Below are positions 8,314-46,131 of a stretch of 46,206 nt of DNA, piece by piece. How positions within the stretch are numbered: position 1 is the first letter of the stretch; each line of letters starts with the position of its first letter. Origin of the DNA: Verrucomicrobiota bacterium (GTDB taxonomy: Bacteria > Verrucomicrobiota > Verrucomicrobiia > Limisphaerales > SXTU01); the NCBI GenBank assembly GCA_016871445.1, contig VHDH01000017.1, positions 1 to 46,206 of the forward strand, given 5' to 3'. The position numbers and the translations under genes are program-made. The notes under the pieces were generated by a model. That model saw only the letters and a list, made by a program, of their open reading frames with translations, was not told the origin of the DNA and ran no database searches.

Positions 8314-8327
8314 TTCGAACCCAAGTT

Positions 8328-8400
8328 TACAGTGTTCAGTGTTCAGTAATGAGTCTTCAACCATGGCCGCCCTCCGGGAAAATTGAACCCTGTCACTGAA
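8328..8400. repeat. CAGT-type repeat element, intergenic copy
   Basis: The gap between the nuclease gene and holA is almost filled by an element that begins CAGTGTTCAGTGTTCAGTAA, has GGCCGCCCTCCGGG in the middle and ends CACTGAAAACTTTCC. Read in the other direction, the insert at 21254-21343 inside PSD1-B has the same order of words (GTGTTCAGTAGTCAGCCTTC, a GGCCG-rich middle, CACTGAAAACCGG). The copy at 19541-19608 shares GTGTTCAGTGTTCAGT and the CACTGAA end. The ends are imperfect inverted repeats. Confidence 0.65.
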
Positions 8401-20140: not shown

Positions 20141-23100
20141 TTAATCCACGAATAGAAACTCGTTCGCCGAGAGTAACACTTGTGCGAGCTGTTCCCAGGG
20201 CTTCAGCGGCGGTTGCGCGGGCACGTCCACGCCACGGAAATCCTTCTTCGCGTCCCATTCCTTCACGGGCACCGGCGCAGCCCCGACCACGGCGGCGGCG
20301 GTGTTCAACTCGGTGATGACGGGCGCCCACTTGAACTCGTCGCTATTCAGGTTCGCGCGAAAATCCACGATGAAGTCCAACGTGTCGCCGGCCTGCACGG
20401 CGGTAGAGGGCACGCGCAGGTCCTCTGCTGCGTTGTGCACGGTCACGGTGCGGAGTTGACCTAACCGGCTGTGCGTGATGAACGCCCGCACGCCATCGCC
20501 CGCGCTGGTCTCGTGCGCGATGCGACCCGCGATGTTCACCACGCAGTCGCGCGGCGCAATCCATCGGCGCACGACCGCATGCTGGAGGTCGTTGCCCGCG
20601 TGACCGCCGTCGGCGGTGAGTTGCGCCCAGCCGAGCTTCGCGTCAGGCCAGTTGGGGCCGCCTTGCCAAGCCTTGCCGGTGAAGTGCGGCAATGCCGTGA
20701 AGTTCTTCAACTTGCGGTTCGGCTCATCGAATTCGCCGTATCCGTAACGCCACTGATTTTCTGGCGGTGGCTCAGGTGTTTGCGGCTGGTTCGCCTCGGC
20801 ATCCGCGATAAAGCGCACGGCGGCAGCGGCCTGTGCGGACGTCGGCTCACGTTGGAAAAGCGCACGGTGGAGAAAGCGGACTTTTTCCTCGGGCGAACTC
20901 AGCTTGGAAAAATCGGCGCGTGCGACGAGCGCCTTCGCGCGCGCGGCGACGAACGGGTGATTGAGGAAAAACAACGCCTGCTGCGAAACGGTCGTCTCGT
21001 GTCGCTGCGGAATGTGCAGGTCGGGATTGGCGAAATCAAAGACGCGGAAGAGCGGCGGCAAATACTGGCGGTCAACGAGACCGTAGAGACTGCGACGCTT
21101 GCTGGTGAAAACGTCGGCGGGCCGGCCGCCGGGCGTGAGGTCGAGCTCGCCGCTGGCCGCGAGCAACGAGTCGCGCAGTTCCTCGAAGTCGAGCCGCTGG
21201 CGGTTCGCGCGCCAGAGCAGGCGATTGTCCGGGTCGAGCGCGGTGGCGCGTTTCCAGTATTCAGGATTCAGTTTCCGGTTTTCAGTGGGCCGCCCGCCGC
21301 CCTCGGCCTGCACCGAAGGCTGACTACTGAACACTGAAAACTCACCAGCCTGCTGATACGCCGCGCTGGTGAGCAAAAGTCGGTGTACCGCCTTTAAACT
21401 CCAGCCGTCCGCCACGAAACGCCGCGCGAGCCAGTCCAGCAACTCGGGATGGCTCGGCGGCTCCGCGCGCAGACCAAAATCACTTGGCGTCTTGACAAGG
21501 CCTGCCCCGAAGTGGTGGAGCCAAACCCGATTCACCATCACGCGAGCGGTGAGCGGGTTTTCCGCATTAGCGATGGCGCGGGCGAGTTCCAGCCGGCCGC
21601 TGCCATGCGCAAACGGCTGCCGCTGCGGGCCGGCAACGACTTCCAAGAACTGCCGCGGGACTTCGACCCCTTTCTGCTTCGGGTCGCCGCGCAGGAAGAC
21701 CCGCGGATTTCCCTGCGGCGCACGGTCCGTGACGATGAGCGCGTGCGCCGGGGCGCCGGGCGCGCGGATGAGGTGGCGGTCTACTTCGCCCTGCAACTTC
21801 CACAGCTCCTCGGTCGCCTTCGTGGTGAAGAGCTGCTCGGTGTTCACGATGCCATCAGGTGGGATGACGGCGGGCGAGTCGGCAGCGTAAAGCACTTGGC
21901 GAAGCGCCTCGGCTTGCGGGTCAGGCAACGAGGTGGGCGCGGGGGAATTGTTCGTTTTCGCGGCGTTGAGCGCGGCCTGCCACTGCTGTTCGATGGTGGA
22001 AAAAACTTTGCCGTAACGCTCGGCGACTTCGCGTGGAGATTTCGGAGGCTCGGTGAAAGCGGCGGCGAGCAACGCATTCGGGTTCGCCCCTGCGTTTGGT
22101 GAACGAACGCCGGCTCCCAATTCAGATGGAGCCTCTTCACGTCGGCTGCTACCGACGTGCTGGTGCCACAGCGCCCACACTGGGTCGCCGCGCTTCCGGG
22201 CCTGTTCAAGATACGCCTGCCAGCGGCGGACGGTGGCGGGGATGAGGTCGTTGTCCGTGAGGATTTGGTCGAAGCCTTCCTCGGGATACTTGTGCAGCTC
22301 GAACTGGGCAGCGAGATAGTCCGTCACTCGGGCGCGGACGCGCGCAGCGGCTTCGGCACGGCGCGTGGCCATCGTCGAGTTCAGCTTGTCGAGGCGAGTG
22401 CGGTATTCCTTGTCAAAGGCAGCGAGCGCATCGGACTGCGCTGGGAATTCGATTTGAACCAACTCATCCGCCGTGCTCTGGAACACGCCGTAAAGCGAGT
22501 AGTAATCTGCAGTTGGAATGGGGTCGTATTTGTGGTCGTGGCAGCGCGCGCACTGGACGGTCAACCCCATCGTGCCGCGCGTCACCACGTCAATGCGGTC
22601 ATCAAGGATGTCGTGCGTCACCCCGATGAAGCGGCGGCCCGTCGTGAGGAAGCCGAGGGCGGCAAGGTCAGCAAGTTTCGAGTTTTGAGTTTCGGGTTTT
22701 GAGTTGGCAGCGGTGTCCGGCAGTGCTCCGCCAACTCGAAACGGCGATAGCTGGTCGCCGGCTATCTGAAGCATCAGGAACCGGTCGTAAGGCAAGTCGT
22801 TGTTCAGCGCGCGGACCACCCAGTCGCGGTAAGCGTGGGCGTGGACGAAGAAGCGTTCTTCGCGGGCATAAACGTAGCCCTTCGTGTCCGCGTATCGCGC
22901 GACATCGAGCCAGTGCCGCGCCCAGCGCTCACCGTAGAGCGGTGAGGCGAGCAGGCGCTCCACGAGTGCGGCGATGGCTCTTTGCTCACTTTCCCGCTTT
23001 CTCACTTTCTCACTATCTCGGATGGCAGGCGGGAAAGTGGGGGAGTGAGAAAGTGAGAATTCCCTTACGAACGCCTCGACCTCCTCCGCGCTCGGCGGCA

Positions 23101-23773
23101 GGCCGGTGAGGTCGTAAGTCATCCGGCGGATGAGCGTGCGCGGATCGGCCGGCGGCGAGGGCTTCAGGCCGTTGGCCTCCAGTTTCGCGAGGATGAAGTG
23201 GTCCACCGGCGACTGCGGCCAAGCCTTGTCCTTCACCTTGGGCAGCGGCTGGTCCTTCGGCGCAACGAACGCCCAGTGCGGCTTCGAACTTTGAACTTCA
23301 GATTTTGCACTTTTAACTTCGCCCGCGCGCGGGTCCGGTGCGCCGCTGCGAATCCACACCTCGAAGTCGGCGAGTTGCTGCGGAGAAAGTTTCTTCTTCG
23401 GGGGCATCTGCAAGTCCGCGCTCGTGTGGCGGATGGCCGCCAGCAACCGGCTATTCTCCGGCTCGCCGGGCACAACGGCGGGTTCGCCCGAGTTGCCGCC
23501 GCGTCGCAAGCCGTCGCGGGTGTCCACGCGCAACCCGGCCTTGAGCGACTTGCTCGTTGCGCTGTGGCACTCGTAGCAATGCTGAGCGAGCACGGGGCGG
23601 ATGCGCCTCTCGAAGAAATCAAACTCAGTCACGGAAGCTCCCAAGCCCAAGCTCCAGAACCCCAAGAAGCACCAAGCTCCGAATACCAATTGCCAGGCAC
23701 CACGTGCGCTTTGGAGCTGGGTCATTGGAGCTTCTTTGGGATTTGGCGCTTGGCGCTTGGAACTTCGGTTCAT
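20141..23773 (-). CDS. PSD1 protein B: planctomycete cytochrome c + DUF1549 + DUF1553 with multiple in-frame repeat inserts
   Basis: About 1210 residues. CxxCH is at CYECHSATSKSLKAG, with QMPPKKKLSPQQLADFEVWIRSGAPDP completing the cytochrome domain. DUF1549 includes LTGLPPSAEEVEAFV, HWLDVARYADTKGYVYARE and CARCHDHKYDP; DUF1553 includes NPLTARVMVNRVWLHHFGAGLV and VSQQALFFLNHPFV. A C-terminal beta-sandwich of about 200 residues follows. Counted from GTG 23782, unusual segments lie at residues 156-167, 243-266, 346-371, 544-567 and 812-841, each encoded by a low-complexity or palindromic repeat and each placed in a loop. The signal-peptide region comes from another repeat. Start is uncertain: GTG 23782, ATG 23773 or ATG 23725. 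It lies 50 bases after the propeller gene and 63 before PSD1-A, so probably one operon. Confidence 0.85.
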   Translation of the reverse strand: MNRSSKRQAPNPKEAPMTQLQSARGAWQLVFGAWCFLGFWSLGLGASVTEFDFFERRIRPVLAQHCYECHSATSKSLKAGLRVDTRDGLRRGGNSGEPAVVPGEPENSRLLAAIRHTSADLQMPPKKKLSPQQLADFEVWIRSGAPDPRAGEVKSAKSEVQSSKPHWAFVAPKDQPLPKVKDKAWPQSPVDHFILAKLEANGLKPSPPADPRTLIRRMTYDLTGLPPSAEEVEAFVREFSLSHSPTFPPAIRDSEKVRKRESEQRAIAALVERLLASPLYGERWARHWLDVARYADTKGYVYAREERFFVHAHAYRDWVVRALNNDLPYDRFLMLQIAGDQLSPFRVGGALPDTAANSKPETQNSKLADLAALGFLTTGRRFIGVTHDILDDRIDVVTRGTMGLTVQCARCHDHKYDPIPTADYYSLYGVFQSTADELVQIEFPAQSDALAAFDKEYRTRLDKLNSTMATRRAEAAARVRARVTDYLAAQFELHKYPEEGFDQILTDNDLIPATVRRWQAYLEQARKRGDPVWALWHQHVGSSRREEAPSELGAGVRSPNAGANPNALLAAAFTEPPKSPREVAERYGKVFSTIEQQWQAALNAAKTNNSPAPTSLPDPQAEALRQVLYAADSPAVIPPDGIVNTEQLFTTKATEELWKLQGEVDRHLIRAPGAPAHALIVTDRAPQGNPRVFLRGDPKQKGVEVPRQFLEVVAGPQRQPFAHGSGRLELARAIANAENPLTARVMVNRVWLHHFGAGLVKTPSDFGLRAEPPSHPELLDWLARRFVADGWSLKAVHRLLLTSAAYQQAGEFSVFSSQPSVQAEGGGRPTENRKLNPEYWKRATALDPDNRLLWRANRQRLDFEELRDSLLAASGELDLTPGGRPADVFTSKRRSLYGLVDRQYLPPLFRVFDFANPDLHIPQRHETTVSQQALFFLNHPFVAARAKALVARADFSKLSSPEEKVRFLHRALFQREPTSAQAAAAVRFIADAEANQPQTPEPPPENQWRYGYGEFDEPNRKLKNFTALPHFTGKAWQGGPNWPDAKLGWAQLTADGGHAGNDLQHAVVRRWIAPRDCVVNIAGRIAHETSAGDGVRAFITHSRLGQLRTVTVHNAAEDLRVPSTAVQAGDTLDFIVDFRANLNSDEFKWAPVITELNTAAAVVGAAPVPVKEWDAKKDFRGVDVPAQPPLKPWEQLAQVLLSANEFLFVD
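21254..21343. repeat. CAGT-type repeat element, in-frame copy in PSD1-B
   Basis: On the minus strand it reads GAGTTTTCAGTGTTCAGTAG, then a GGCCGAGGGCGGCGGG middle, then CCACTGAAAACCGGAAACTG. The arms TTTTCAGTGTTCAGT and ACTGAAAACCGGAAACTGAA are imperfectly complementary. It encodes about 30 residues (EFSVFSSQPSVQAEGGGRPT and on) between LTSAAYQQ and ATALDPDNRLLWR. Those two blocks are separated by about 10-15 residues in relatives. Confidence 0.65.
22079..22156. repeat. GTCGGCTGCTACCGAC-type palindromic repeat inside PSD1-B
   Basis: The element contains the perfect hairpin GTCGG-ctgcta-CCGAC (22141-22156), GGCTCCC...ATGGAGCC, and GTTCG...CGAAC arms (22082-22106). Read on the minus strand in the gene's frame it gives GSSRREEAPSELGAGVRSPN. 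The segment lies in the spacer region between DUF1549 and DUF1553, where length varies among relatives. Confidence 0.6.
22674..22746. repeat. GAGTTTCGGGTTTTGAGTT-type palindromic repeat inside PSD1-B
   Basis: The left arm GTTTCGAGTTTTGAGTTTCG plus GGTTTTGAGTTGG (22675-22707) is matched by the right arm CCAACTCGAAACGGCG (22731-22746), with a GC-rich loop of about 23 bases. It encodes about 25 residues (SPFRVGGALPDTAANSKPET...) between LQIAGDQL and ADLAALGFLTTGRRF. Relatives go almost directly from the one to the other. Confidence 0.65.
22984..23061. repeat. CTCACTTTCTCACTTTC-type palindromic repeat inside PSD1-B
   Basis: CTCACTTTCCCGCTTTCTCA and more (22985-23013) pairs with GGGAAAGTGGGGGAGTGAGA and more (23030-23058), nearly complementary over about 28 bases. 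The loop carries TATCTCGGATGGCAGG. The gene's frame reads SLSHSPTFPPAIRDSEKVRK and a few more residues between VEAFVREF and QRAIAALVERLLASPLYGER. The homologous linker in PSD1-A carries a different insert. Confidence 0.7.
23283..23320. repeat. AT-rich low-complexity insert in PSD1-B
   Basis: TTCGAACTTTGAACTTCAGA followed by TTTTGCACTTTTAACTTC is strikingly AT-rich within a GC-rich gene and is made of repeated (G/T)AACTT words. It encodes VKSAKSEVQSSK between the cytochrome domain (GAPDPRAGE) and PHWAFVAPK. Confidence 0.55.
23633..23768. repeat. 136-bp imperfect palindromic element covering the 5' end of PSD1-B
   Basis: The left arm (23635-23702) contains AGAACCCCAAGAAGCACCAA and GCTCCGAATACCAATTGCC. 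The right arm (23703-23765) contains TTGGAGCTTCTTTGGGATTT and GGCGCTTGGCGCTTGG. The reverse complement of the left arm follows the right arm for most of its length, word by word (GGAGCTT, CTTCTT, GGG, TTTGG, GCTTGG). The element overlaps the start codon candidates and encodes the hydrophobic N-terminus AWQLVFGAWCFLGFWSLGLG. Confidence 0.7.
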
Positions 23774-23830
23774 CGCGGGCACACGGTCTAAGACGCAGCG
23801 CAGGCTACCGAATTCGCCGCGCGGAGCTGC

Positions 23831-45609: not shown

Positions 45610-45629
45610 CTGATAGGAAATTGCTTTGA
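45610..45629. repeat. CTGATAGGAAATTGCTTT repeat, copy 1
   Basis: The 20-base sequence CTGATAGGAAATTGCTTTGA matches copies 2 and 3. It lacks the GACGCTGCGCG tail of the others. It is fused to the end of the DUF1552/DUF1501-type remnant on the minus strand. Confidence 0.7.
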
Positions 45630-45643
45630 GCGGGATCCTCCCG

Positions 45644-45745
45644 GTTCTGGCCAATGAGATTGAAGTGCTCGCGCGGGGTGCCGATGGCGTGGAGGATTGT
45701 GTTGTAGAGCGCGTTGATCGTCGGGCCGGAAGAGGCCGATTCCAC
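45644..45745 (-). pseudogene. C-terminal remnant of a planctomycete/verrucomicrobial DUF1552/DUF1501-type gene
   Basis: Minus-strand frame SGPTINALYNTILHAIGTPR followed by EHFNLIGQN. The motif G-P-x-x-N-x-L-Y-N-x-hydrophobic-L-H-A-x-G-x-P-R-x-x-F is what I recall from the end of planctomycete DUF1552/DUF1501-like proteins, though I could not check it. Just after it the frame continues into a copy of the CTGATAGGAAATTGCTTT repeat (45610-45629, read QSNFLS). Upstream no coding sequence of the family is left. It is a fossil, perhaps cut by the repeat insertion. Confidence 0.4.
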
Positions 45746-45800
45746 CGGGTTATTCCGGGTCTCGGGGCACAGTGGGGCCTTCGTCCACGTCCTCGGCGAG

Positions 45801-45956
45801 CTAACTGGATTCTTTCTCGCCTGCTCTCACCAATATAGAGCCTATTACACCAGCGACAATAGGCGACCAACTCACACCAGTTAGGTCGTAGCCGAAGAAC
45901 ATCCCAGCGAAGTCAATTACGGCAAACGCATAGCATAGATAACCTAGAACCTTCAT
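45801..45956 (-). CDS. 51-residue small membrane protein
   Basis: A small frame that begins at ATG 45956 and stops at 45801-45803. The product starts MKVLGYLCYAFAVIDFAGMF and continues FGYDLTGVSWSPIVAGVIGS, then ILVRAGEKESS. It has two hydrophobic segments (about 4-21 and 31-44) joined by a short loop with YDLTG, a pattern seen in small conserved hypothetical membrane proteins of many bacteria. A good Shine-Dalgarno (GAAAGGAGACTTGA) lies just upstream, unlike most genes in the window. Base composition is less GC-rich than its surroundings. A copy of the CTGATAGGAAATTGC repeat lies directly upstream. Function unknown. Confidence 0.7.
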   Translation of the reverse strand: MKVLGYLCYAFAVIDFAGMFFGYDLTGVSWSPIVAGVIGSILVRAGEKESS

Positions 45957-45973
45957 TCAAGTCTCCTTTCTTC

Positions 45974-46006
45974 CTGATAGGAAATTGCTTTGACGCTGCG
46001 CGCTTC
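45974..46006. repeat. CTGATAGGAAATTGCTTT repeat, copy 2
   Basis: CTGATAGGAAATTGCTTTGA followed by CGCTGCGCGCTTC. It lies between the small membrane protein gene and copy 3, about 15 bases upstream of that gene's start, and so may hold its promoter. A second AATTGCTTTTGCG motif follows at about 46013. Confidence 0.7.
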
Positions 46007-46095
46007 AGGGAGAATTGCTTTTGCGTCGGGTTCATTGGCTGTGATTTTGCGCCTTCACGGATCGTTGGCAAGCATCGTTTTCGTGACTTTTGCAA

Positions 46096-46131
46096 ACTGA
46101 TAGGAAATTGCTTTTTTGACGCTGCGCGGTT
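46096..46131. repeat. CTGATAGGAAATTGCTTT repeat, copy 3
   Basis: CTGATAGGAAATTGCTTTTT, then TTGACGCTGCGCGGTTC. It shares the core and the GACGCTGCGCG tail with copy 2, with three extra T. No gene is seen between it and the right end of the window (46132-46206). Confidence 0.7.

Follow-up and report, generated by a model that had tools for sequence, protein, structure and literature searches.

The PSD1-B gene described here carries six inserts of repetitive DNA that keep its reading frame. The best explanation that we can offer is that they are translated copies of lineage-specific simple-repeat elements, which would be amplified, swapped at flexible loops, resized by slippage and filtered for frame (we put the probability of this reading at roughly 0.7). 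The gene lies in a window of 46,206 nucleotides, the whole stretch of DNA that we analysed (Verrucomicrobiota bacterium, contig VHDH01000017.1). It starts with GTG, and its product of 1213 amino acids has the PSCyt1-PSCyt2-PSD1 architecture. Five of the inserts had been described in a first-pass annotation of the same DNA; all five are present at the residues given there, with the frame open along the whole gene. The sixth lies over the signal peptide. The features are as follows, with the evidence for each in brackets.

20141 to 23782, minus strand: the PSD1-B gene, host of the inserts (ORF call; Pfam PSCyt1, PSCyt2 and PSD1)
23642 to 23764, minus strand: the sixth element, a heptamer hairpin at residues ~7-47 (fold z, lag-7 identity, congeners)
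23282 to 23317, minus strand: site 1, residues 156-167, a non-palindromic array of the heptamer AAGTTCA (lag-7 period, congeners)
22985 to 23056, minus strand: site 2, residues 243-266, an octamer palindrome, TTTCTCAC (fold, 8-nt period)
22670 to 22747, minus strand: site 3, residues 346-371, a GTTTCGA/AAACTCG heptamer palindrome (fold, congeners, array scan)
22082 to 22153, minus strand: site 4, residues 544-567, a GTAG-type REP palindrome, GTAGCAGCCGACGTGAAGAGGCTC (genome matches, congeners)
21260 to 21349, minus strand: site 5, residues 812-841, a TTCAGTG/ACTGAAC heptamer palindrome with a GC-rich spacer (genome matches, congeners)
8324 to 8358, strand not assigned: an intergenic copy of the TTCAGTG heptamer family (genome matches, array scan)

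Taken with the N-terminal segment, the inserts have a GC content of 0.55 and a third-codon GC of 0.50, as opposed to 0.65 and 0.80 for the remaining PSD1-B. The AT shift that the annotation attributed to them holds for the inserts overall and for site 1 (GC 0.33), but not for site 4 (GC 0.61). Their description as mostly palindromic was borne out at sites 2, 3, 4 and 5, which fold better than their shuffled versions (z of -2.9, -2.0, -2.2 and -2.5, respectively), but failed at site 1 (z +1.6). A period of 7 nt is seen at sites 1, 3 and 5, and one of 8 nt at site 2. Four of the inserts (sites 1, 3, 5 and the N-terminus) are arrays of degenerate 7-bp units, usually paired as an inverted hairpin. 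The strongest hairpin of all is that of the sixth element (z -4.8 for the 143-nt stretch folded; lag-7 identity 0.48), whose arms, CCAAGCG/CTCCAAG and CTTGGAG, are kept in most congeners. Its 5' arm encodes a polar stretch of SSKRQAPNPK-like residues and its 3' arm the hydrophobic core of the signal peptide, the latter assigned by inspection.

Period 7 is in excess across the genome, of which we sampled 1.9 of 3.5 Mb, as stretches, with genes called by a simple model of our own. Self-similarity at lag 7 marks 37 segments of this sample. The counts at lags 8, 10, 11 and 13 are 1, 0, 1 and 0, and a Markov-4 null yields no lag-7 segment. When the window and nine stretches selected by matches are set aside, 29 such segments remain, versus 0-1 at other lags. 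Tandem Repeats Finder reports 87 period-7 arrays as opposed to 17 in the null, and 28 imperfect palindromes score 16 or more, with 0 in the null. Relaxing the threshold slightly brings the number of period-7 arrays to 75, of which 46 fall inside genes; a reduced and less biased set holds 54 arrays built from 37 different units, with 31 of the 54 inside genes. Aligned by eye, the commonest units have C/G-A-A/G in common, the other four bases being free (for example ACTGAAC, GCGGAAT, CGGCAAT, TCTCAAC, GTCCAAA, CTCGAAA and CCCCAGA). The family of site 5 has 51 other matches in the genome, and the palindrome of site 4 has 12 other partial matches. Thus the prediction that the DNA of the inserts recurs at many other loci was right for most of the inserts, whose families are multicopy, and wrong for site 2, whose insert occurs once in its genome.

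Repeats of other kinds occur in the same sample. The 11-mers within TTACCTTCACCAGGC, a non-heptamer repeat, are 10-50 times over-represented and lie on several contigs. Near the contig end, positions 45610-46116 of the window hold three copies of CTGATAGGAAATTGCTTTGA; TTTGACGCTGCGCG comes after two of the copies. This may be a further dispersed repeat. Further palindromes starting with GTAG (GTAGCTCGACTTTCC.., GTAGCGGCGGTCTGTG.. and GTAGGGACGCGCTCC..) are found at L119:7845-7912, L106:8521-8596 and L103:9991-10094, some of them in genes.

We compared families across genomes that are fragmented and look like metagenome assemblies. CTCGACC has 84 pattern matches in G005 and 19 in G004, as opposed to 0-1 in nine other congeners (control, 0-4). 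G004 and G005 are also the two genomes, and the only ones, in which it occupies site 5 of PSD1 and loop 2 of leucyl-tRNA synthetase (LeuRS); there it is found at site 5 of PSD1 paralogs and in unrelated genes as well. The ACTGAAC family is present in all eleven genomes of the genus that were examined, and its exact pattern in 29 of 388 genomes of the phylum. For CTCTCAA the reversed-pattern control is unusable, since the reversed unit is the same array in another phase, and its counts were not used. One record that encodes a PSD1 protein and contains heptamer arrays bears the title of a Klebsiella pneumoniae MAG, almost certainly in error.

A dedicated copying system, whether a polymerase or reverse transcriptase that writes 7-nt units or a transposase of heptamer hairpins, might spread the arrays and rewrite the same loops of essential proteins time and again. 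We regard it as unlikely. We are more doubtful still that all inserts are miniature transposons of the RPE or REPIN type, inserted as units by one transposase such as RAYT. The families are indeed multicopy, palindromic and lineage-specific, Y1-type transposases occur in the genus, and site 4 with its counterparts in G006 and G001 resembles GTAG REPs or REPINs. However, neither the ends nor the spacer nor the length of the heptamer elements is conserved, the spacers between arms varying within one family, and several elements consist of one array that is not palindromic (site 1, GGCAATC, CTCTCAA). No target-site duplication was found at the filled loops. Moreover, the Y1_Tnp profile is clear in G002, G003, G006 and G007 but marginal in G000 (24.3 bits, cut-off 23), and the same search finds no Y1 transposase in G001, G004 and G009, although arrays are common there. 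These transposases, present in some genomes only, could account for the REP of site 4.

The orthologs of PSD1-B in ten congeners share 76-86% amino acid identity with it, some of them being only pieces at contig ends. The annotation had proposed that orthologs would lack exactly these segments, but most congeners hold another repeat family in the same loop. With the family at each loop assigned by eye, site 1 is occupied by AAGTTCA, AAGTCCA or GGTCAGC arrays of nearly equal length, and the loop of site 2 holds GGCAATC heptamers in G001-G005 and G008. At site 4 the REP is found in G000 and G006 (the G006 copy being paired, REPIN-like), a different GTAG/CTAC palindrome in G001 and CTCAAAA heptamers in most others, with no repeat in G003. 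Site 5 carries ACTGAAC in G000, G001 and G007, CCGAATT in G002, G006, G008 and G009, CTCGACC in G004 and G005, a CTCTCAC-like palindrome in G010 and TTCCGCA in G003. In LeuRS, the loop ESYWMG[..]STPGV is filled with ACTGAAC, CTCTCAA, CGCTCAA or GTCGAGA, depending on the species; the loop GAEVDF[..]IRVF is repeat-free in G003 and G010 and holds ACTGAAC or GATTGCC arrays in others. In methionyl-tRNA synthetase (MetRS), the loop ISVPAA[..]WPA has GGCAATC, CTCTCAA, CTTCAAC or GGGTCTG. Families are thus swapped in frame at eight loops, five of them in PSD1, two in LeuRS and one in MetRS. On a tree of ten species built from the conserved parts, these loops require at least 27 changes. Filled sites substitute for native loop residues and are not added to them; no clean pair of an empty and a filled site with exact junctions was found among the congeners compared. 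Counterparts of the neighbouring PSD1-A and PQQ genes were not found in the congener regions examined, where only PSD1-B matched, as a paralog.

LeuRS varies in other respects too. Its loop AHDERD[..]LNGLP holds unrelated, non-repetitive in-frame segments that differ in length from congener to congener, and the enzymes of G004 and G007 have an extra segment of ~120 amino acids in the editing region (..TPEALMVVTAERAVRFRAVPVYYGEGTLIVAISNPADLDMMDSLRHEL..), recognised by eye as resembling the N-terminal domain of type II secretion/pilus ATPases.

The closest pairs are informative on how the loops change. The sisters G002 and G008 (93% nucleotide identity) carry different families at site 3; their identity falls to 50-56% only around this site, the divergence being contained within ~60 residues, and the G002 version matches that of G005. 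At LeuRS loop 1 and the PSD1 N-terminus, the arrays of these two differ in length by exactly 21 nt, or three units. Such 21-nt steps would be expected if arrays were born in place through 7-nt slippage in fast-evolving loops, immobile between loci. Also on this side are the known excess of heptameric repeats in bacteria, ascribed to slippage (PMC4692102), and the site 5 CTCGACC array of G004 and G005, whose end is in register with the native codons CTC GAC C. Nevertheless, we hold birth in place to be as improbable as insertion by one transposase: one family extends across unrelated genes of one genome and is missing from sister genomes, inverted arms share one family, and a local repeat would not be common to LeuRS and PSD1. 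A purely local origin of the array families was rejected because the same family is found in unrelated genes.

In our judgement it is very unlikely that the loops are scars of homologous recombination, which would have brought in short tracts from other species with the repeats as incidental content. The confined divergence between G002 and G008, with the G005-like version in G002, speaks for such imports, and so does the pair G003 and G033, in which an identity of 95-100% is lost only around site 4, flanks included, and where the contig ends. This would explain travel between species, but not period-7 palindromes common to many other genes. The annotation had offered mobile elements selected to be translatable and recombination scars tolerated in loops as alternatives, and each of them turns out to be partly right. 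G033 is placed in another taxonomic family. With site 4 left aside, its PSD1-B shares 95% identity with that of the congener G003, which suggests either a misbinned contig or a recent transfer.

We scored codon usage in six frames on either side of each element. The frame is kept across 27 of the 35 elements that are flanked on both sides by clear coding sequence of the same strand, and the eight that change it lie between two genes or at gene edges. The host genes of arrays encode RimO, PheT, LeuRS, MetRS, MtnA, ArgJ, QueA, lactate permease and many PSD1 paralogs. In sense arrays of ACTGAAC within genes, the in-frame opal position reads TGG in six cases of six, and where this position is out of frame we counted 15 TGA to 1 TGG; the pattern is what translation and selection against stops should leave. 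Heptamers within genes are not clearly richer in stop-free units (34 of 42 in sense orientation, versus 69% of random heptamers). Therefore, filtering is supported, and not a pre-adaptation to translation. Because 7 and 3 have no common factor, the peptide of seven residues that an array encodes is identical in all frames, and passengers of this kind should be unusually easy to tolerate. An assembly artefact was considered and rejected, as open frames are found at the same loops in independent genomes.

The location of the inserts in loops, which the annotation had claimed, agrees with an AlphaFold model of PSD1-B built on an alignment of 50 relatives (mean pLDDT 85). Six segments of the model fall below 50, and four of these six (residues 154-164, 351-365, 547-564 and 817-835) coincide with sites 1, 3, 4 and 5; site 2 is also weak. 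This low confidence leads us to place the inserts in flexible loops. We mapped 79 arrays in 143 PSD1 ORFs, which came from this genome, its genus and order, and further phyla. All but one, or 78, fall in the N-terminus or these five loops, a total of 229 of the 1213 residues. The loop of site 5 is also filled in PSD1 paralogs, and a Planctomycetaceae genome and an Abditibacteriales genome have PSD1 arrays at sites 1, 2 or 5 too. The peptides encoded by arrays are polar, S/N/Q/K-rich linkers and the N-terminal element encodes the core of a signal peptide, but that the repeats encode functional linkers under protein-level selection is the least probable of all readings, given that sequence and charge differ wholly between sister species at the same loop, that third-codon GC is 0.50 versus 0.80, that model confidence is low at most inserts, and that the same DNA families also lie between genes.

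We therefore return to translated copies of simple-repeat elements. What the data show directly is the period of 7, the many families, copy numbers that depend on the lineage, the in-frame position in loops, replacement at one and the same loop, and TGG in place of the in-frame TGA of ACTGAAC; the rest of the model is our proposal. Against it stand the failure to find any enzyme or copying intermediate in the genomes examined, the lack of exact junction pairs and target-site duplications among the loops compared, the varying spacers, and the single-copy insert of site 2. The element would be a tandem 7-bp array, usually an inverted pair around a GC-rich spacer, of which one family may amplify to many loci within one lineage. 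Families would land, or be swapped in, repeatedly at the same flexible loops, with array length changing through slippage; copies within genes would persist on condition that the frame is maintained and free of stops, selection removing those that break it. Copying may proceed by replication slippage and template switching at hairpins, which would generate the inverted arms. New loci could be reached by this route or by conversion between arrays, and versions probably pass between species by short-tract recombination. The REP of site 4 was presumably moved by a RAYT-type transposase. The arrays would be tolerated passengers that require no host function, at times domesticated, as the signal-peptide element may have been.

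Several known systems share part of this behaviour. Rickettsia palindromic elements (RPEs) are short palindromic sequences inserted in frame in functional protein genes (PMC3733652), and the heptamer inserts likewise sit in frame inside intact protein genes. However, RPEs are families of defined, conserved multicopy palindromes, whereas here we find degenerate 7-bp arrays of many families, with degenerate arms, varying spacers, a non-palindromic site 1 and a unique site 2, and sister species differ in which family a particular loop contains. The first-pass annotation took a comparable set in a verrucomicrobial PSD1 gene not to be known from the literature; in-frame palindromes as such are not new in this group, as intragenic GTAG REPs are known in the verrucomicrobium Opitutus terrae, including one in uvrA (PMC3733652). 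By its sequence, site 4 appears to belong with these: like its counterparts in G006 and G001, it has GTAG followed by a palindrome, is multicopy and is in frame. Compared with a REP defined as GTAG beside a palindrome of 20-40 bp, site 4 has the GTAG and, in G006, an inverted partner, and the best fold puts GTAG within a stem-loop. Sites 1, 3, 5 and the N-terminal element differ in being heptamer arrays without a fixed sequence, and neither a GTAG nor a CGTC tag is present in the heptamer elements listed.

Heptanucleotide elements are also described in Geobacter metallireducens, in one family of 49 copies within and between genes, and for another class there, five heptanucleotide repeats are depicted as forming a hairpin (PMC2700814). 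The likeness lies in tandem heptanucleotides that also occur within genes. In the part of that report dealing with these repeats, though, they are putative regulatory elements with a fixed consensus, and in-frame swapping of loops between species or replacement by lineage is not reported.

Cyanobacterial STRRs are heptamer direct repeats in many copies. TAACTGA repeats are described in Beggiatoaceae (PMC4679880), and G-rich heptamers in Xanthomonas and Nostoc along with a heptamer excess in bacteria (PMC4692102). All of these share tandem 7-nt units in many copies with the present arrays, but they are mostly intergenic direct repeats built from one or two different units in each genome, whereas here there are 37 canonical units and over half of the arrays of the reduced set lie in genes. 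TAACTGA would fit our heptamer pattern if the C/G of the core were T; in forward orientation, a TAACTGA array contains a stop codon in every frame and is therefore confined to gene ends. In a literature search that left most subscription papers outside, we found no in-frame translated heptamer hairpins with species-by-species replacement at loops. In our judgement the novelty lies in heptamer arrays that form hairpins, are translated, and both spread and are replaced within loops that tolerate them. Beyond the first-pass annotation, the analysis adds the heptameric periodicity, the exchange of families throughout the genus, the inserts in essential genes, and the fact that paralogs and members of other phyla carry arrays at the same loops.

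In these genomes, repeat DNA of a noncoding type is turned into predicted protein sequence, and in essential enzymes it is exchanged as fast as closely related species diverge. This amounts to a natural, many-fold replicated test of which protein loops tolerate insertion, and offers a handle on the old question of the 7-bp repeat excess in bacteria. Another consequence is that, in such genomes, homology should not be judged by how long a loop is or by its sequence. If a dedicated copying system did exist, the frame-independent peptide would make the array an unusually safe genetic passenger.
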